A stretch of 64,000 nt of DNA from Candidatus Acetothermia bacterium (GTDB lineage Bacteria; Bipolaricaulota; Bipolaricaulia; RBG-16-55-9; JANLFV01), in the NCBI GenBank assembly GCA_024653345.1, contig JANLFV010000003.1:62001-126000 (forward strand). The letters run 5' to 3'. Positions 1,170 through 37,786 of the stretch are shown in pieces; within the stretch, counting starts at the first letter, position 1; each line of letters opens with the position of its first letter. Below the pieces are notes generated by a model, which saw only the letters and a program-made list of their open reading frames with translations, was not told the origin of the DNA and did no database searches. Position numbers and translations under genes: made by a program.

Positions 1170-1766
1170 CTACATCACCGCCAGGGCGATCCCGATGATC
1201 CCCACGAACAGCCCCGCCAGGCCGATGATGAAGCTGGCGTTCGCCTGCTCCCGGAGCTTGGTCACATCGGGCGAGGCCGTCTTAGCGGAGCTGAGCTGGG
1301 CCTGGAGGGACTGGATCTGCTGGGCCTGCTGCTGGACCTTCGCCTGGAGGCTGGCCAGCTCCGTGGCGCTCGCGCCGGTCCCGCTCGACTCGAGCTTCTG
1401 GATCCGGTCGTTCACCTTGTAGATCAGCTCCTGCATCACCTTGAGGTCCTCGCTCTTGATCACATCCGGGTTGTTCAGGGCGAACCGCAGTGCCCGGGCG
1501 ACCATCGCCGCGCCGGCATAGCGGGTCATGGCCTGATCGCCCTTGAACTGCCCGCTGGGGAGGCCGGTGATGATCCCCCGCTCGACCAGGAACTGCAGGT
1601 CAGCGATCGCCCAGTGGTCGGCCGGGACATCGCTGAAGAGGCTCCCGGCCCTTGGGGCCACGCTCGTCCCCCCGGAAGTCGAGCCCGAGCCGTCCGAGAG
1701 GACCACACCGCCCAGGCCGAGGACTAAGAGCGCGCCGATCAGCCCGATTAAGGGAACTCTTGCCAT
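1170..1766 (-). CDS. single-SLH-domain, coiled-coil membrane protein
   Basis: The 198-residue product begins with a hydrophobic segment (about 5-24, signal peptide or anchor) and a Gly/Ser linker. One S-layer homology motif follows (about 43-95, FSDVPADHWAIADLQFLVERG then ITGLPSGQFKGDQAMTRY). Next comes a Gln-rich heptad-like coiled coil (about 110-165), and a hydrophobic segment ends the protein (about 177-197). SLH domains bind secondary cell-wall polymers or peptidoglycan, and one SLH plus a coiled coil is the plan of spacer proteins that tie the outer envelope to the wall. Here a single C-terminal membrane helix takes the place of the usual beta-barrel. The gene is alone, with a strong promoter and a leader of about 180 bases. 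Confidence 0.8.
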   Translation of the reverse strand: MARVPLIGLIGALLVLGLGGVVLSDGSGSTSGGTSVAPRAGSLFSDVPADHWAIADLQFLVERGIITGLPSGQFKGDQAMTRYAGAAMVARALRFALNNPDVIKSEDLKVMQELIYKVNDRIQKLESSGTGASATELASLQAKVQQQAQQIQSLQAQLSSAKTASPDVTKLREQANASFIIGLAGLFVGIIGIALAVM

Positions 1767-25298: not shown

Positions 25299-25327
25299 TT
25301 GTCAAGAGGCCTGGTCTGTGCTAGTAT
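25299..25327 (+). promoter_or_regulatory. promoter for the giant beta-helix gene
   Basis: TTGTCA (25299-25304), 17-base spacer, TAGTAT (25322-25327). GGGAGG at 25341-25346 then precedes the ATG at 25355. Confidence 0.75.
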
Positions 25328-25354
25328 TCAGTCAGTGAAAGGGAGGTGACGAGG

Positions 25355-28300
25355 ATGAACATCTCCAAGAAGCAACCCAAGCTGCTCGGTTCGTTGGTAG
25401 CCCTCTGGCTGCTCCTTCTGTTGGGAATAGGGTGGTCCGCCCAGGCCGATACCCTCGAGGTCCCCAGCACGCGGTATAGCACTCTGCAGGAGGCGATCGA
25501 TGATGCCGGCCCCGGGGATGAGATCGTGATCACCACTTCTCAGACCTTCCGGGAGAACATCAAGGTCCGGAACAAGCGGCGGATCACGATCAAGACCGAA
25601 TGGATGGCACGGAAGGCCACGATCCAGGCGCGGCGGGAGACCGACCCGACGGTGACGATCACCTCCTCCTCCGATATCACCTTCGAGAACATCATCATTA
25701 CCGGGGGAGCAATCGGCGTGACCGCGGAGAACAGCACGAAGATCCTCTTCAAGAACTGCGAGATCAAGGGGAACAAGGGGGTCGGGCTCAGCGGGACGGG
25801 CCTCTCGCTCGATAAGAGCACCGTCACGGAGAACGCCACCTGGGGGCTCGAGCTGACGGGCGAGGTGAGCGCGACCATTACCAGCAGCACGATCTCGAAG
25901 AACCCCTCCGGGGGGATTAGCGTCCGGAGCGCGACCCTGGAGATGCAGGGGAGCACCCTCGAGGCGAACGGGACCTACGGGCTGGTCGTGAGCGACAGTG
26001 GGAAGGCCACACTCGTCGAGACTACGATCACCGGCCATCCCCAGGGCGGGGTCCATGTGATCTCCGGCGCTACGGCCACGCTCGGGGGGACGATCAAGGA
26101 CAACCAGGGCGCGGGCGGCTTGGCGGAGGGGGCGACAATGAACCTCGCCCAGGCCACGGTCTCCGGCCACCCCGAGGGCGGCCTGATCTACAGGAACGCG
26201 AGCGGGAGGATCGAGTCCAGCCAGATCACCGCCAACGCGAAAGAGGGAATACTCCTCGTCAACTCCCAGGTCCAGATCGAGGGCAGCGAGATCAAGGCTA
26301 ACGCCGCCAACGGGATCTACGCCACCAGCTCCTCCCAAGTCGCCCTCGCGGGCAACTCGACCATCTCGGAGAACGCTCAGGACGGGCTGGTCCTCGAGGC
26401 CGCGAGCGCGACGGTGAGCGAGTCGCAGATTGTGGCGAACCGCGCGAACGGGATCTTCGGGACGAGCGGGGCCACGGCCGCGGTCAGCGGCTCGACGATC
26501 GCGAGCCAGGCCCAGGCCGGGGCGAGCCTAACGAATAGCTCGATCGAGCTCCGCGCCAGCCAGGTCCGAGAGAACGGCTCACACGGGGTCTACGCCACCT
26601 CCGGCTCACAGGTCCTCGTCGCCCAGCAGTCGATCGTCTCTGGGAACGGCCGGGACGGGGTGGCCTTGGACGCCTCCTCAGCTACGATCAGCGATTCCCA
26701 GCTCCTCAGCAACCAGGCTAACGGCTTGAGCGAGGTCAATAACGCCTCCGCGCGAGTGGCGAGCAGCATTGTGGCCGGCAACAGTGCCGAAGGGCTGCTC
26801 CTGAGCGACTCGACACTCGAGATCCAGGCTAGCCAGGTCAAGGAGAACGGCCAGAACGGGCTCAAGGCGACCGCGGGCTCGCAAGTGACCGTCGGCGGGG
26901 GCTCTGTCATCTCCGCGAACGGGGTGAACGGCGTCCTTCTGGACAGCTCGACCGGCGCGATCAGCGCCTCCCAGGTCTTGAACAACAAGGCGAACGGGAT
27001 CAGCGGGGTAGCCCAAGCGAACGCGACGATCACCTCCGCCACGATCGCTTCGAACGCCGAGGAGGGGATCCTGCTGAATAACTCCAAGGCCACGGTGAGC
27101 GCGAGCGAGGTCAGGGACAACGGGAAGAACGGGGCCTATGCCACCGCCGGGTCCGAGCTCGCGGCCAGCGGCTCGACCTTCTCCGGGAACAAGCTGAGCG
27201 GGATCTTGCTCGACGGCTCGACGGCCACGATCACCGACTGCCAGATCTTGAACAATGGCCTGAACGGCCTCCGCGGGGTGAGCCGCTCCCAGGCCACGAT
27301 GAGCGGGAGCACCGTCTCCGGCCACCCTGACGACGGGGTCTATCTCGAGAGCTCGACCGCCACGATCTCGACCTCCACGATCAAGGAGAACCGGGGCGAA
27401 GGGCTCCACGGGGTGGCCCAGGCCGCGGCCTTCCTCAAGGATAGCCATATCTTGAACAACAGCAAGAACGGGATCTTGCTCGAGAACAGCGCGGTCGAGA
27501 CCGAGGGGTGCGAGATCCGTGCGAACGGGCTCAACGGGATCTACGAGAAATCCTCCTCGGCCAAGGTGGACACCACGGTGATCGCCGACCACCCCCAGAA
27601 CGGGCTGCTCCTGGAGAATAGCTCGACCACGATCACCTCCTCCCAGATCCTCACCAACCAGGGCGAGGGGGTCCTCGCGAGCCAGTCGAAGCTGGCGATC
27701 GGCGACTCCACGATCGACGGGAACAAGAAGAACGGCCTTCTCCTGACCAACTCGACGGCCGACATCACCGGGACGAGGATCACGAACAACGGGATCCGAG
27801 GGATCGATGCGAGGCAGAACTCGAGCTTGACCATGACCACCAGCCTCGTCTCGGGCCACCCCAGCGACGGGATCTTCCTCCAGAATAGCTCGGCGGACAT
27901 CCTGAAGAGCGAGATCAAGGACAACGGGGCGCGGGGCCTCGGGGCGGAGGTCTCGACCGTGGTGATGGAGGCCTGCCTCGTCTCGGGGAACGCCAGCCAC
28001 GGCCTGGACCTGCTCAACTCGACCGCGGACCTCACCTCCACCAAGATTCTCAATAACCGCGGGCGGGGCATTAACTCCCAGGACTCGACGGCCGCGCTCG
28101 TGGAATGCACCATCTCCGGCCAGCCGGTCGAGGGCGTGGTCTTGGTCAACTCCGCCGCGGGGTTCGAGACCACGGCCATCGACTCAAACGGGAGCTTCGG
28201 CCTCTTGGCCCAGAACGCCGTGGCCGCCTTCTCCGGCGGCTCGGTCTCGAACAACGGCCAAGACGGCTTCTCCCTCACCAAGGCCTCGATCGACGCCAAA

Positions 28301-30715
28301 GACCTGAAGGTCGAGGGGAACCGCGGCCACGGACTCAAGGCCGAGTCCTCGAAGGCGAGCTTCCGGAACTCGACCATAACCCGGAACACCGGGAATGGGC
28401 TCTGGCTCAAGTTCTCCCAGGCCTCGCTCGAGCGGAGCCAGATCACCACGAACGGCGGCTACGGGATCGAGGCCAGCGAGCGCTCAAGGGCCACGGTCTC
28501 GAACAGCGTGATCTCCGGCCACCCGAAGGACGGGCTCAACCTGGCCGACTCGACCGCCGACTTGCGCGCGAGCCAGGTGAAGGACAACCGGGGCGAGGGG
28601 ATCGCGGCCCAGAACTCGGTGGTCAAGCTCCTCGACGCGAGCGAGGTCTCGGGCCATCCGAACAACGGCCTCCGGCTCGCTAACAGCTCGGCCGAGCTGC
28701 GCGGGAGCACGATCAGGGCCAATAACGAGAACGGGGTCCTCGCCCAAAGCTCGATCGTCCTCGCCGTGGGGTCGAAGATCGAGAACCACCCCCAGGACGG
28801 GCTCAATCTGACGGACTCCAAGGCCGACCTCGAGTCGTCCCAAGTGACGGGCAACCGCGGCAGGGGGATCTACGGAGCCAGCAACTCCGAGGCGAAGCTG
28901 GTGAACACCACCATCTCCGGGAACGGCCAGGAGGGGGCCTTCCTGGACGGTAGCTCGCTCGAGGCCAAGGGGAGCCAGATCGAGCGGAACGGGACGAGCG
29001 GCCTGAGCGGGACGAACTCGAAGATCACCCTCACCGAGTCGAAGGTGAGCGGCCATCCTCAGGACGGGCTCGCCTTGAGCGGCTCGACGGCCGAAATCTC
29101 GGGGAGCGAGATCACCGACAACCGGGCTCACGGGATCAATGCCACGGCTAGCTCGACCGCCTCGCTCGCCAACTCGAAGGTGAGCAAGAACGGCCAGGAG
29201 GGGCTCCTGCTCGCGGACTCGGCCGCGGATCTCACCGCCAGCAGCATTCAAGACAACGGCGCGGCGGGCGTCCGGGCCACGAGGTCGATCCTCAACCTCG
29301 CCAAGGGGAGCACGGTCAGCAACCATCCGAACGAGGGGATCGTCCTCGAGAGCAGCTCGGCCAAGGTGAGCGAGTCGACGATCAGCGGGAACCGGGGCCA
29401 CGGCCTGGCCGGCACCGGCTCGAAGGCCACCCTCGAGGGGAGCACCCTCACTAGCAACGGCGGGAACGGGCTCGAGCTGAGCGGGAGCTCCCTGACCGCC
29501 TCGACCTGCCAGCTCACGGCCAATGGCGGCTCGGCGGTGAACGCCCGCGAGCGGTCGAGAGTGGCGCTGATCGGGAGCCGGGTCTCCGGCCATCCGCGGG
29601 ACGCGATCGTGCTCGACACCAGCGCGGTCGACCTCGAAGATACCGAGGTTCGCGACAACAGCGCCCGGGGGGTCGTGGCCGCGAGCGGGACCCTCACGAT
29701 CGCTGGGAGCCTGATCTCCGGCCACGGCGGCGTCGGGATCTATCTCGACAGCTCGAAGGCCGATGTGAAGAGCTCCCAGATCAAGGCCAATCGCGGCCAG
29801 GGGATCAGCGCGACGAAGTCCACGATCGCCGTGAGCGACTCCACCATCTCCGGCCACCCGAACGAGGGGGTCCTCCTCGAGGAGTCCTCGCTCGACCTCG
29901 TGGGGAGCTTCGTGACCGACAGCGGCGGGGCGGGGATCGTGGCCCGCGACTCCCAAGCCACCGTCTCCGGGAGCACGATCTCGGGGAGCAAGAGCTTCGG
30001 GCTGGACCTTCTGAACAGCTCGGCCGTGGTCATGGACAAGTCCGAGCTCAAGGAGAACGGGAGCATCGCGATCAACACGGCCAACTCGACCGTCACGCTC
30101 CTCGACTCCTTGATCAGCGACCACCCCGCGACCGGGCTCCTGTTGAAGAACTCCCCCGCCTCGGTCACGACGATGAGGATCAGCGGGAACGCCGGCTGGG
30201 GGATCGAGGCCCAGGACCGCTCGGCGATGATGGTCACCGACTCGCTCATCTCGGGGAATCGGCTGGGCGGGATCTCGCTCATCAGCGCCGTGGCCGCCCT
30301 GATGGGCGGTGAGGTGAGCGCGAACCTCGCCGACGGGCTGGCCCTGAGCCAGCGCTCGGCGGTGATGCTCATCGGGACCGCAGTCAAGGAGAACCAGGGC
30401 GACGGGCTCTCGCTCGAGAGCAGCTCGGCCTCGGTCCGCGGGGCCACGATCTCCGGGAACGCGGGCCATGGGCTGATCTTGACAACCCAGTCGGTCCTCT
30501 CGCTCTACCAGTCCACCGTCTCGGGGAACAGGCTGGACGGGGTCCACCTCGAGGCTTCGCTCGCCTCGATCCGGATTAGCCAGATCACGAACAACGCCGG
30601 CTACGGGATCTTCGCGGACGCGGCCTCGACGGTCGCGGGCTACGGGAACACCGTCTCGGGGAACGGGACGGATCTGTCGGACAATGTCCCGCCGAGCGTA
30701 ACCGAAGAGCGGTAG
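25355..30715 (+). CDS. giant secreted right-handed parallel beta-helix protein
   Basis: The 1786-residue protein has a signal peptide (cut near SAQA-DT, about residue 31) and an N-terminal cap (STLQEAIDDAGPGDEIVI) typical of NosD/pectate-lyase-like helices. About 70 rungs of about 23 residues follow. Rungs carry S/A-x-x-x-S-x-I-x-x-N-x-G-x-G-I/L, and every second or third is marked SGHPxxG(L/V). The sequence is rich in Ser, Asn, Gly and Ala, low in aromatics and very low in Cys. At about 0.48 nm per rung the helix would be roughly 33 nm long. I see no catalytic site, no membrane anchor, no cell-wall motif and no dockerin. I chose the ATG at 25355, spaced eight bases from GGGAGG; a GTG at 25346 is less likely. 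Likely roles are adhesin, sheath or polysaccharide binding, but none is shown. Confidence 0.85.
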   Translation: MNISKKQPKLLGSLVALWLLLLLGIGWSAQADTLEVPSTRYSTLQEAIDDAGPGDEIVITTSQTFRENIKVRNKRRITIKTEWMARKATIQARRETDPTVTITSSSDITFENIIITGGAIGVTAENSTKILFKNCEIKGNKGVGLSGTGLSLDKSTVTENATWGLELTGEVSATITSSTISKNPSGGISVRSATLEMQGSTLEANGTYGLVVSDSGKATLVETTITGHPQGGVHVISGATATLGGTIKDNQGAGGLAEGATMNLAQATVSGHPEGGLIYRNASGRIESSQITANAKEGILLVNSQVQIEGSEIKANAANGIYATSSSQVALAGNSTISENAQDGLVLEAASATVSESQIVANRANGIFGTSGATAAVSGSTIASQAQAGASLTNSSIELRASQVRENGSHGVYATSGSQVLVAQQSIVSGNGRDGVALDASSATISDSQLLSNQANGLSEVNNASARVASSIVAGNSAEGLLLSDSTLEIQASQVKENGQNGLKATAGSQVTVGGGSVISANGVNGVLLDSSTGAISASQVLNNKANGISGVAQANATITSATIASNAEEGILLNNSKATVSASEVRDNGKNGAYATAGSELAASGSTFSGNKLSGILLDGSTATITDCQILNNGLNGLRGVSRSQATMSGSTVSGHPDDGVYLESSTATISTSTIKENRGEGLHGVAQAAAFLKDSHILNNSKNGILLENSAVETEGCEIRANGLNGIYEKSSSAKVDTTVIADHPQNGLLLENSSTTITSSQILTNQGEGVLASQSKLAIGDSTIDGNKKNGLLLTNSTADITGTRITNNGIRGIDARQNSSLTMTTSLVSGHPSDGIFLQNSSADILKSEIKDNGARGLGAEVSTVVMEACLVSGNASHGLDLLNSTADLTSTKILNNRGRGINSQDSTAALVECTISGQPVEGVVLVNSAAGFETTAIDSNGSFGLLAQNAVAAFSGGSVSNNGQDGFSLTKASIDAKDLKVEGNRGHGLKAESSKASFRNSTITRNTGNGLWLKFSQASLERSQITTNGGYGIEASERSRATVSNSVISGHPKDGLNLADSTADLRASQVKDNRGEGIAAQNSVVKLLDASEVSGHPNNGLRLANSSAELRGSTIRANNENGVLAQSSIVLAVGSKIENHPQDGLNLTDSKADLESSQVTGNRGRGIYGASNSEAKLVNTTISGNGQEGAFLDGSSLEAKGSQIERNGTSGLSGTNSKITLTESKVSGHPQDGLALSGSTAEISGSEITDNRAHGINATASSTASLANSKVSKNGQEGLLLADSAADLTASSIQDNGAAGVRATRSILNLAKGSTVSNHPNEGIVLESSSAKVSESTISGNRGHGLAGTGSKATLEGSTLTSNGGNGLELSGSSLTASTCQLTANGGSAVNARERSRVALIGSRVSGHPRDAIVLDTSAVDLEDTEVRDNSARGVVAASGTLTIAGSLISGHGGVGIYLDSSKADVKSSQIKANRGQGISATKSTIAVSDSTISGHPNEGVLLEESSLDLVGSFVTDSGGAGIVARDSQATVSGSTISGSKSFGLDLLNSSAVVMDKSELKENGSIAINTANSTVTLLDSLISDHPATGLLLKNSPASVTTMRISGNAGWGIEAQDRSAMMVTDSLISGNRLGGISLISAVAALMGGEVSANLADGLALSQRSAVMLIGTAVKENQGDGLSLESSSASVRGATISGNAGHGLILTTQSVLSLYQSTVSGNRLDGVHLEASLASIRISQITNNAGYGIFADAASTVAGYGNTVSGNGTDLSDNVPPSVTEER

Positions 30716-30727
30716 GGAATCAGGCAG

Positions 30728-30768
30728 GAGAGGGGCAGGGCGTCAGAGGGCCCTGCCCCTCTCTTTTT
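30728..30768 (+). terminator. rho-independent terminator of the beta-helix gene
   Basis: A perfect 14-bp GC-rich stem (30728-30741 with 30750-30763) and an 8-base loop, then TTTTT (30764-30768). It is followed directly by the stop codon of the convergent gene. The stem could also work weakly for the other strand. Confidence 0.93.
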
Positions 30769-32780
30769 CACATCAGCTCGATGATCCGCAGGCCGCCCTC
30801 ACGGTCGGCCACATAGGCGTATTCGTCGGTCACGAAGACGCTCACCGCGCTCCCGGGGGTGTCGAGCATCGCGACCGGGCGGGGCGCGGCGGGATCGGCC
30901 AGGCTGAGCACGAGCAGTCCGGCCCCGTAGTCCGCGACATAGAGGTAGCCGCCCCTCATGAAGAGCCCGCTCACCTCGCCGGGGGTGTCATAGGACCCGA
31001 CCTCCCGGGGATTGGCCGGGTCGGAGATGTCCACGATCTCGACCCCGCGATAGCCGCTCGCGACATAGGCGTAGTTCCCGTTCACCCAGGCGGCGTGAGA
31101 CTCGCCCAAGAGGTCGACCCAGCCCACGCCCGCGGGCTTGGCCGGATCGGAGATGTCCACGATCTCCAGGCCCGCGTCCCCGGTCGAGATGTAGGCGTAG
31201 CGGCCGGATAAATAGACTCCTTCAGCATAACCCCTCGTGCTCCATGAGCCGACCCCTTTGGGGCTGGTCGGGCTGGAGATGTCCACAATCTGGAGGCCGC
31301 CCTGGTTGTCGGCAATGTAGGCGTAGCGGCCGTGGACGGCCACATCCTGGGCCGAGCCGGGGGTGTTGAAGGTCGCGACCTCCTCGGGCCTGGTCGGGTC
31401 GGAGATGTCCAGGATCACCAGCCCGCCGCCCCGGTCGGCACGATAGGCGTATCTTCCCTGGACCTCGATCGAGCGGGCGTAGCCTCTCGTGCTGTGGGAC
31501 CCGACCTCCTTCGGGCTGGCCGGATCGGAGACATAGACGACGAGCAGCCCGAAGACCCCTACGACGAGGTAGGCGAACTGCCCCTCGACCCAGACATCGA
31601 GGGCGTAGCCGGAGGGCTTGAACGAGCCGACCTCGCGGAGCTGGAGGACCGCGCTGATCGTGAGCGTGTAAGCGCCGGTCCCGTCCGGCCGGGCGTGCCG
31701 GACTGAGACGAAGTAGGTCCCCGAGGCGGGGCAGCTCCACTCGAGCCGCGAGGCCCGCCCGCCGCCGCTGTTGTCGTCCTCCGCCAGGACCGTCCGGCCG
31801 TCGGGGCCGTAGAGCGTCAGGAAAGTGTCCATCTCGCTGCTCAGGTCGCTCGTGGCGATCGTGTATTTGGCCTCGGCCTTGGCGGAGAAAGAGAAAAAGT
31901 CCACATCCCCGGGGACCTCGATCCGACCCGCCAGGGCCGTCCCGTCGGTCGGGACCGCCACGGCCGTCGCCGGGCTGTTCCCGTAGTCGTCCCCGTAGCC
32001 GGTCTTCTTGACCGTCAGGGCATAGCCGCCGGTGCCGTTCGGGTCCGCGTGCCGGACGGCCACGAAGTAGGTCCCGCTCGCGGGCGCGGCCCAGGCGAGC
32101 CGCGAGGCCCGCCCCCCGCCGGAGTTGTCGTCCTCCGCCAGGACTGTCCGCCCGTCGGGGGCGTAGAGCGTGAGTAGAGTGTCCATCTCCGCGCTCAGTT
32201 GCTCGGTCGCGAGGAGATAGCTCCAGTTGGCCTCGGCGCTGAAGAGGAAGTAGTCCACATCCCCGGGGACCTCGATGTAGCCCGCGATCGGGCTCCCATC
32301 GGTCGAGATGGGCGTAGCGCTCAAGGGGTCGTCCCCGTGATCATCGGCCTGGGCGGCGCTGACCGTCAGGCCGCAGCAGCCGGTGCCGGTGGTGGCCTGG
32401 GCGTGCCGGACCATCACGAAATATGCCCCGGAAGCGGGGCAGCTCCACTCGATCTTCGAGGCCCGCCCCCCGCCGGAGTTGTCATCGACGGCCAGGATCG
32501 TCTGCCCGTCGGTCCCGAAGAGGTAGATGAGCGTGTCCATCTCCGGGGTGAGATGGCTGGTCTGGATGAGGTATCTCCTCCCTCCCACGGCGCCAAATAG
32601 GAAGTAATCGATATCGCCCGCCGGCTCGATGCAGCCGGTGATGAGCTCACCATCCGCCGCGATCGGGGTGGCGGTGAGCGGGGTGTTCCCGTGGTCATCC
32701 GCGTTCGCCGCGCCCAGGCTCGCCCCCACCAGCCCGAAGAGCAGGACCAGCGTCGCCCACCTCAAGCCCCGCTTGATCAT
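30768..32780 (-). CDS. secreted protein with three PPC domains and an LVIVD beta-propeller
   Basis: The 670-residue protein begins with a signal peptide (cut near AANA-DD, about residue 27). Three near-identical PPC (pre-peptidase C-terminal) beta-sandwich domains follow (about 28-145, 146-260 and 262-375), each with PGDVDYF, DGRTVLAEDDNSGGGRASRL and SGTYFVAVRHA. Seven LVIVD repeats (about 385-670) follow, of the form GYAYVAD..GGLxIVDISDPxxP, and predict a beta-propeller. Such proteins are extracellular and often bind polymers or proteins; no catalytic domain is seen. The three PPC copies are alike enough to be recent duplications. It converges on the beta-helix gene. Its ATG overlaps the ruvX stop or start region by 4 bases. 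Confidence 0.87.
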   Translation of the reverse strand: MIKRGLRWATLVLLFGLVGASLGAANADDHGNTPLTATPIAADGELITGCIEPAGDIDYFLFGAVGGRRYLIQTSHLTPEMDTLIYLFGTDGQTILAVDDNSGGGRASKIEWSCPASGAYFVMVRHAQATTGTGCCGLTVSAAQADDHGDDPLSATPISTDGSPIAGYIEVPGDVDYFLFSAEANWSYLLATEQLSAEMDTLLTLYAPDGRTVLAEDDNSGGGRASRLAWAAPASGTYFVAVRHADPNGTGGYALTVKKTGYGDDYGNSPATAVAVPTDGTALAGRIEVPGDVDFFSFSAKAEAKYTIATSDLSSEMDTFLTLYGPDGRTVLAEDDNSGGGRASRLEWSCPASGTYFVSVRHARPDGTGAYTLTISAVLQLREVGSFKPSGYALDVWVEGQFAYLVVGVFGLLVVYVSDPASPKEVGSHSTRGYARSIEVQGRYAYRADRGGGLVILDISDPTRPEEVATFNTPGSAQDVAVHGRYAYIADNQGGLQIVDISSPTSPKGVGSWSTRGYAEGVYLSGRYAYISTGDAGLEIVDISDPAKPAGVGWVDLLGESHAAWVNGNYAYVASGYRGVEIVDISDPANPREVGSYDTPGEVSGLFMRGGYLYVADYGAGLLVLSLADPAAPRPVAMLDTPGSAVSVFVTDEYAYVADREGGLRIIELM

Positions 32781-34777: not shown

Positions 34778-36232
34778 ATGGGGCTGAAGAGAGTCCTAAG
34801 GTTGTTGCCTTTGTAGCAGTCTTGGCCTGGTTGGGCTGGACTCTCACGGGCTGCTGGGGCCCGACGGCACCCCTGGCGGCCTTCATCGCCGCTCCTACTA
34901 CTGGCCTAATGCCACTAGCAGTCCAATTCACTGACCAGTCTTCGGGGAGCGTGACTGATTGGCTTTGGGACTTCGGCGATGGGACGACCTCGACGGAGCA
35001 GAATCCGCTCCATGTCTATGCAAAGGGCGGGAAGTTCACTGTCACTCTCACCGTGGGTTACAGCGGGCTGGTCACCAGCACGGTGACTAAGACGAACTAC
35101 ATCATCGTGACCTGGGCAGTCGGGCCGACGCCGGGCATGTGCACGACCATTCAAGGTTGCATCGACGCTGCAGCTCCAGGCGACACGATCGTCATCAAGG
35201 ACGGCACCTACATCGAGAATCCCAACATCTCGAAGCCCTTGACGCTGATGGCTGGATCAACGCCGCTCGTCCAGGGCAACATGACGATCAGCTCCTCAGG
35301 CGTGACTGTAAAGGGGCTGAAGATCACTGGCGATTTGATTGTCCAGGCCGGGGCTGAGGACGCGGTGGTCACCGGCTGCGTCATCGACGGCGTTGCAAAA
35401 CTGCCTGCTGGGTCGTTGACTACGACTAACTTCGATGCTTGGGGAGGAGTTGACGGAACGGACTACAAGATCGAGTTCGATGTCGATGCGGCTGGGGTCG
35501 GCAATGTCGGCCTGAGGATGTATGTCTATGGCCTGGACATGAGCCAGGTGATCTATGCGGGTAGCTGGGGATGGCCGCCAACTCTGGACGATCTCGGCGG
35601 CTGCGCGATGGCCGGGATAACCGGCAGCTCTAGCATCGAATTCGACAGGCCGAACGCGGGCTGGTTCCAGCTGCACAGTGCCTTGGGAACCGAGAAGAGC
35701 TGGGAGCAGGTCCTGGTAGACCAAAATACCCACCGCAAGTACCTGCTCCAGGCCTGGCATCGCGGCCTTACCGGGGGCAAAGTCTTCCCCGATGGACCAA
35801 ATGGCCATCAGTACAATGTCGAGCGTTACCTCGGCCCGGCAGGGAGGCCCGAAGCAGGCTGCAGTGGATACACACCGGACCCGGAGTATGACACCTTCGA
35901 CCTGAAGATCGACTTCACCCCGCTCGGAGGCGGGCAATACAAGATGGAGGGCTGGGTCAGGTTGCATAAGGCCTCCTCATGGGATGAAATGATCTGCAAG
36001 CCCCACTCGTTCAAGTGGCAGTGGAACAAAGCCATTAACAATGTGGCTGACCCCAGTGACGCGTGGGTGAGGATCGGTGGTCACCTGGCCCCCAGACAAG
36101 CAGTATCGGATCATAAGCAATGCAGACTTCTCCAAGGTCTTCCCCTTTATCAACGTCGCCAACTGGGGCACGACCCAGGTGAACTATCATACAGTGAGCT
36201 GGGACAGCATCGAGGTAGACGGGACACCATAA
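34778..36232 (+). pseudogene. PKD-domain surface lipoprotein, twice frameshifted
   Basis: GGGAGG and the ATG at 34778 begin MGLKRVL, but this frame stops at 34814-34816. The lipoprotein signal (VVAFVAVLAWLGWTLTGC, lipobox LTGC) lies in another frame from about 34798. That frame holds a PKD domain (about 34880-35110, WDFGDGTTSTEQNPLHVYAK), a short beta-helix part (DTIVIKDGTYIENPNISKPL, VKGLKITGDLIVQA) and a longer C-terminal domain to about 36075. The true end then continues in a third frame (KQYRIISNADFSKVFPFINV, VNYHTVSWDSIEVDGTP) to TAA at 36230-36232. Two indels at opposite ends mean a decayed gene or assembly errors. GC content and the presence of GTAC differ from the neighbours, suggesting recent transfer. 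Confidence 0.7.
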
Positions 36233-36439
36233 GGACTTGAATTGCCACAGGTGACAGTATGCGGCATTGACCGTGGGCAATAGACCTGTTCCAGGAAAGA
36301 AAGGAGCAGCAAGCAGCTGTAAGCACTGACTGGCTGTGAGCGATTAGACCGGAGGCCCCATCGAGGACGGTGGGGCCTTCTGGTTTCTGGATGAAAGGCT
36401 TGAATCCGCTATTTGACTAGAGTAATCGAAAGAAAGGGC
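36233..36439. other. gap after the PKD gene
   Basis: Noncoding apart from the terminator at 36353-36378. The segment with GTAAGC and GAGCGATTAGACC is related to the one after the protease gene (about 36874-36895). Confidence 0.45.
36353..36378 (+). terminator. rho-independent terminator of the PKD gene
   Basis: AGGCCCCA (36353-36360) pairs with TGGGGCCT (36371-36378), 10-base loop, followed by a T-rich tail (TCTGGTTTCTGG). The sequence is homologous to the terminator at 36896-36937. Confidence 0.7.
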
Positions 36440-37603: not shown

Positions 37604-37618
37604 AATAAACAACGACCC

Positions 37619-37707
37619 GGAGGGGTAGTCTAGCGGTCTAAGACGGCGGTTTGCTAAACCGTTGCAGGGCCAAAACTCTGCCGTGGGTTCGAATCCCACC
37701 CCCTCCG
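37619..37707 (+). tRNA. tRNA-Ser (anticodon GCU)
   Basis: An 89-base cloverleaf. The acceptor stem GGAGGGG (37619-37625) pairs with CCCCTCC (37700-37706). The anticodon stem-loop is GCGGT-TTGCTAA-ACCGT, a long variable arm marks a class II tRNA (GTTGCAGGGCC to CTGCC), and the T arm is GTGGG-TTCGAAT-CCCAC. The discriminator is G; CCA is not encoded. A TAAAAT hexamer at 37601-37606 may be its -10 box. It reads AGC/AGU codons. Confidence 0.95.
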
Positions 37708-37710
37708 CCC

Positions 37711-37786
37711 GCGCCTGTAGCTCAGTGGACAGAGCGACGGACTCCGGATCCGTAGGCCGGGGGTTCAAATCCTCCCAGGCGCACCA
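37711..37786 (+). tRNA. tRNA-Arg (anticodon CCG)
   Basis: Acceptor stem GCGCCTG (37711-37717) pairs with CAGGCGC (37776-37782). The anticodon stem-loop is ACGGA-CTCCGGA-TCCGT, the T loop is GGGGG-TTCAAAT-CCTCC, the discriminator is A, and CCA is encoded at 37784-37786. It reads CGG, a frequent codon here. It follows tRNA-Ser after 3 bases, so both are processed from one transcript. Confidence 0.95.

Follow-up and report, generated by a model that had tools for sequence, protein, structure and literature searches.

The window analysed here, a stretch of 64,000 nucleotides from a Candidatus Acetothermia bacterium, encodes a giant protein that is a real, conserved and ordered variant of the common beta-helix fold. 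The protein is marked by (i) a strict alternation of two rung types, (ii) a conserved register of His-Pro (HP) turns, (iii) a fixed length and (iv) linkage to a partner gene. We infer its function, its location and the meaning of the HP turns: with a probability of about 0.55, the exported single chain is a rigid rod that acts, with a secreted partner, as a structural or spacer element of fixed length in the Bipolaricaulota cell envelope or extracellular matrix. In such a rod, a signal peptide and an N-terminal cap would precede a stack of about 74 rungs closed by a C-terminal cap, without a catalytic domain or loop insertions; the stack would measure about 36 nm at the textbook rise of 4.8 Å per rung.

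The giant gene and its predicted fold

The open reading frame is intact from 25346 or 25355 to 30715 (+ strand). The best predicted start is ATG 25355, as the Shine-Dalgarno sequence GGGAGGTGA (25340..25349, + strand) stands before it; this start gives 1786 residues, the length stated in the initial annotation. An alternative start at GTG 25346 gives 1789 residues, and residue numbers in the comparisons follow this longer count. The gene stands alone, flanked upstream by a promoter-like site (TTGTCA-17-TAGTAT with extended TG; 25299..25327, + strand) and downstream by a strong intrinsic-terminator hairpin (16 bp stem, -36 kcal/mol, then T5; 30725..30768) located between two convergent genes. 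The promoter-like site is suggestive, with one site found in the consensus scan and 0.5 expected by chance. Neighbours at the locus are prfB, a TauE/SafE permease gene, a gene for a PPC+LVIVD protein and a ruvX-like gene, in a host genome of 1.71 Mb that is 92% complete. The AT skew is strong across the giant gene (+0.23 to +0.25, window 26000-30000), plausibly because the rung code is rich in Thr, Asn, Ser and Ile.

The encoded chain (all coordinates on the + strand) begins with a predicted signal peptide (25355..25450; a predicted helix at residues 14-26, then a weakly predicted stretch), and the protein is predicted to be exported. The N-terminal cap that follows (25451..25681), which starts with VPSTRYSTLQEAIDDAGPGDEI, is delimited by ortholog comparison and AF2 and has VP and PGD motifs conserved in orthologs. 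Rungs 0-7 (25682..26221) form an irregular N-terminal zone that is poorly conserved and variable in rung number; this zone includes HP rungs 5 and 7 (His codons 26036 and 26168). The anchor choices for rungs 0-6 are uncertain, as one other parse differed for some of them, and no claim depends on these rungs. Rungs 8-72 (26222..30582) are strictly alternating two-rung units of 22-24 residues per rung, as delimited by register, shuffling and AF2. Among orthologs, conservation of outward-facing residues is best in the C-terminal rungs 67-73 and the end cap NGTDLSDN (30154..30712). The beta-helix totals about 74 rungs with a mean of 22.35 residues and stops no more than about 12 residues short of the C terminus, leaving a short tail after the last rung.

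The predicted fold is a right-handed beta-helix. Pfam matches the protein to PF13229 Beta_helix in 18 stretches (701.3 bits, E 1e-213; curated cut-off 25.9 bits) and to NosD PF05048 (294 bits), and the profile search finds no other Pfam family. AF2 models, which cover parts of the chain, predict an uninterrupted three-strand helix (pLDDT of 96.8 for residues 640-1789 and 94.7 for residues 1-700; pTM of 0.64 for the long part), in which DSSP assigns three parallel strands to each rung, with every rung at 22-24 residues and no inserted loops. The protein shares with PF13229/PbH1 repeats the right-handed three-strand rungs of about 22 residues and the NxxxG(I/L/V) turns, but differs in its 74 uninterrupted rungs, its strict two-rung alternation and an HP turn mostly at every fourth rung. 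NosD (PF05048, TIGR04247) has the same fold; however, the match is to the repeat-level PF05048 only, the TIGR04247 equivalog is not listed by NCBIfam at E 1e-3, and no nitrous-oxide cluster is found among the immediate neighbours of the giant gene.

Many right-handed beta-helices are carbohydrate-active enzymes, and Foldseek lists PL6 lyases and AlgG/AlgE for the rod. That the protein is itself a lyase or epimerase is nevertheless quite improbable. While the mannuronan epimerases AlgE4/AlgG and the PL6 alginate lyases share the right-handed beta-helix, they have active-site loops, whereas the rungs of the rod are uniform at 22-24 residues throughout and lack long loops that could make up a cleft. 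In addition, no enzyme family is matched in Pfam or NCBIfam, and conservation is spread along the rod with its peak at the C-terminal cap. The only solved chain found by sequence is the tail fibre gp15 of Staphylococcus phage Andhra (PDB 8egr; profile E 3e-15), which is also the best fold match to the rod (E 3e-12); gp15 is a 609-residue phage receptor-binding protein, by contrast, and the likeness amounts to about 15% identity over generic beta-helix.

Two-rung alternation and the HP turns

With the rung register set on the G of the NxxxG(I/L) turn (position 0), rung identity over rungs 8-72 is 21% at lag 1, 33% at lag 2 and 38% at lag 4. When the order of these rungs is shuffled 500 times, none of the shuffles reaches the even-lag values and all lie above the odd-lag values. 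The ordered alternation proposed in the initial annotation is thus real and its periods are regular, although the rung and the two-rung pair measure 22.35 and 44.7 residues rather than about 23 and 46-48. The strongest marker is position +3: all 33 even rungs have Leu there, whereas 26 of the 32 odd rungs have Ala or Gly. Rung length is 22 residues in 32 of 33 even rungs and ranges from 22 to 24 in odd rungs. Across orthologs, Asp/Glu occupies position -1 in 60% of even rungs versus 9% of odd rungs, and position +9 in 70% versus 3%. As position +3 faces inward by the strand pattern, the alternation may be read as a stacking of large and small residues. The two-rung unit would then be one of core and charge packing: within a single core column, layers of Leu take turns with layers of Ala/Gly, and the acidic positions at the edge (-1 and +9) are confined to alternate rungs. 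A Leu layer and an Ala/Gly layer, with acids on every second rung, would represent a natural design rule for long stable beta-helices.

This order had been called unusual, and it is indeed absent from eight other beta-helix proteins, all of the same phylum, on which the contrast with ordinary beta-helices rests (z of -1.6 to +1.2, no HP rungs). No description of the family, or of its two-rung/four-rung code, was found in the open-access literature. A frame-shuffled origin of the pattern, raised at the outset as one case that would overturn it, is dismissed by a dN/dS of 0.26 against the same-genus ortholog.

HP replaces Asn-x at positions -4/-3, with the His at the usual Asn position of the turn. 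Thirteen rungs carry HP (nine GHP and four other xHP, where about ten GHP and four variants had been counted), besides which there are QP and GHG relics. In the regular zone, HP falls on rungs 24, 28, 32, (36, as QP), 42, 44, 46, 50, 54, 58, 62 and 66. The conserved sites (27323..30127, + strand) have His codons that start at 27323, 27590, 27857, 28520, 28655, 28787, 29054, 29324, 29591, 29855 and 30122, and the relics in the series are QP at 28121 and GHG at 29723 (+ strand). The earliest two HP rungs, 5 and 7, precede the regular zone; the later ones are even in 11 of 11 cases (P = 2e-4), with seven gaps of exactly four rungs (P = 0.0014 given even-only). Two rung types therefore exist as first described, but they do not oppose HP to Asn: even rungs carry either His or Asn, and HP comes mostly at every fourth rung. 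In ten orthologs of about 37-40% identity, the same rungs bear HP or a relic, and odd rungs never do. In the proposed rod, an HP turn would stand in place of Asn-x on every second even rung.

The HP residues take the same turn in each rung that bears them and are in this way aligned along one edge, which upholds one part of the suggested His-lined face; the face is not continuous, as Asn holds this edge in three of four rungs. For the same reason, successive His residues are mostly about 19 Å apart; the nearest are 9.6 Å apart and never closer than two rungs, distances derived from the register at an assumed textbook rise of 4.8 Å per rung. A metal-binding His face along the helix is highly improbable on this geometry. 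Although the His residues share an edge and Asp/Glu stands at -1 in most even rungs, the His residues are two to six rungs (9.6 Å or more) apart, so that two of them cannot hold one metal ion. Moreover, odd rungs have Asn in 98% of cells at the HP-edge position, the whole protein has only 24 His, and NosD-type names rest on the shared fold.

Judging by the sequences compared, the two-rung period runs through the rung as a whole, whereas period 4 is limited to the HP turn. At the HP turn, lag 4 is clearly above lag 2 in nearly all orthologs (weakest in L039), while outside it lag 4 is about equal to lag 2 in all of them. Duplication plainly gave rise to the two-rung units, and doubling them once more would yield a four-rung step; the period-4 pattern could thus be a functionless fossil of an ancestral four-rung duplication. 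This origin is rather unlikely, as a duplication control in which the four-rung phase was predicted with the three HP-turn positions excluded finds no period-4 memory outside the turn (permutations at least as good in 274 of 500 for even and 435 of 500 for odd rungs). Also against it, all lineages compared share a step of six rungs, from 36 to 42, and the HP register is still kept.

The HP turn may be a structural variant of the turn or a regular docking mark at steps of about 19 Å. If it is a mark, one edge of the rod could bind a linear polymer with a repeating unit, such as polysaccharide or peptidoglycan strands, with HP as the contacts about 19 Å apart. HP spacing is kept over class-level divergence although other outward positions drift, and phage receptor-binding fibres, alginate epimerases and alginate lyases are among the solved structures nearest in fold. 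Polymer binding is still unlikely: such fold matches are to be expected of any beta-helix, conservation of outward-facing residues is no higher near HP than elsewhere, and the His may point into the turn, in the usual place of Asn. Aromatics, which commonly contact sugars, are also rare, the exception being position -1 of odd rungs (13%). A wider scheme, which we regard as doubtful, joins two nested periods under separate selection with an HP docking ruler, a class-wide rod of fixed length and a linked propeller partner; here the two-rung unit would set core packing and charge, and the HP ruler would dock a partner or polymer in steps of about 19 Å.

Fixed length and distribution in the phylum

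From residue 640 onwards, the C-terminal core spans 1145-1150 residues in members of families f1, f2, f3 and f5, and about 1104 residues, i.e., two rungs fewer, in complete members of f6. The same-genus ortholog, at 83% identity, likewise has 1789 residues and aligns without a gap. Change in copy number, which the length of the repeats had suggested, is rejected: the core is constant within the order, no indel separates the same-genus pair, repeat copies are at most 75% identical at the DNA level, and TRF detects no rung-length tandem array in the giant gene. In the N-terminal third, rung number differs between genera, and slow change did therefore happen there. While most repeat proteins gain or lose units, this one has held both its number of rungs and the register of one minor motif over class-level divergence, which points to a job that depends on length and position.

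Of 100 Bipolaricaulota genomes, about 18 carry the giant form (families f1, f2, f3, f5 and part of f6). Family f4 has relatives of about 1000 residues with partial alternation and HP at four-rung steps (L046, L047 and L048), and no giant gene was found in complete f7 genomes. With a suitable root, the tree agrees with vertical descent. Where relatives of the locus are named, they belong to Candidatus Bipolaricaulota (Acetothermia, Fraserbacteria). A search of genome contigs with two short HP-type patterns, which is blind to HP-poor relatives elsewhere, finds no member of the family outside records that are either assigned to Bipolaricaulota or co-located with them. The search for close relatives in plasmids gives three weak generic beta-helix matches, and that in phages gives none. 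In the single-contig genome G085 (L104), the giant gene appears split into two frames, possibly by sequencing error.

Secreted partners and the cell envelope

The proposed partner in the window is a secreted 670-residue protein with PPC domains and an LVIVD beta-propeller (30768..32780, - strand), encoded by the convergent neighbour of the giant gene. Orthologs of this PPC+LVIVD protein occur in 9 of 99 genomes (E < 1e-60), all nine with a giant gene in convergent orientation (the window, G001, G027, G036, G041, G051, G085, G090 and G095); in G090, the two genes are separated by a 307-aa ORF. The chance of this overlap is about 3-5e-8 if genomes are independent, a value that is too optimistic because the genomes are related. 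In f2 and f3, a different secreted protein (SNase+PKD+LTD) is encoded directly downstream of the giant gene on the same strand (L038:10423-11685, L042:4156-5409, L043:3618-4859 and L044:4399-5727; genomes G002, G003, G008 and G012), with a broken or split copy in G006 and a fragment on another contig in G010. The full SNase+PKD+LTD architecture is not seen in other genomes at a comparable score. That two lineages each keep a secreted protein beside the rod supports a joint function, while gene adjacency is no proof of physical contact and convergent genes are no operon. The rod would work with a separate secreted partner, namely the PPC+LVIVD propeller in f1/f6 and the SNase+PKD+LTD protein in f2/f3.

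A long beta-helical stalk outside the cell is also known from the adhesins pertactin and antigen 43. These are autotransporters, whereas the rod has no Pfam match to an autotransporter C-terminal outer-membrane barrel domain; nor is an anchor, sorting signal or surface-tether domain recognised in it. The host genome encodes Omp85, and a 198-aa ORF of the window (1170-1766, - strand) has an SLH domain, the sole SLH match found in the genome. Omp85 together with SLH suggests a tethered outer membrane and a diderm envelope, in line with the simple Thermotoga-like diderm envelope proposed for a member of the Acetothermia (PMC6092417). The Bipolaricaulota are little studied; some members have polar prosthecae, and their surface proteins are largely unknown (PMC6092417). 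In Ran1, prosthecae are reported, while adhesins or pili were not recognised (PMC6092417). The rod would provide the phylum with a concrete candidate envelope component, together with candidate partners.

Elsewhere in the window, an ORF at 34822-36240 (+ strand) encodes a PKD domain and, after it, a weak NosD-like stretch; the ORF seems to end out of frame. This ORF sits in a dip in G+C (61% to 58% over 34-38 kb), directly after which tandem genes for tRNA-Ser(GCT) and tRNA-Arg(CCG) are located (37618-37786, + strand).
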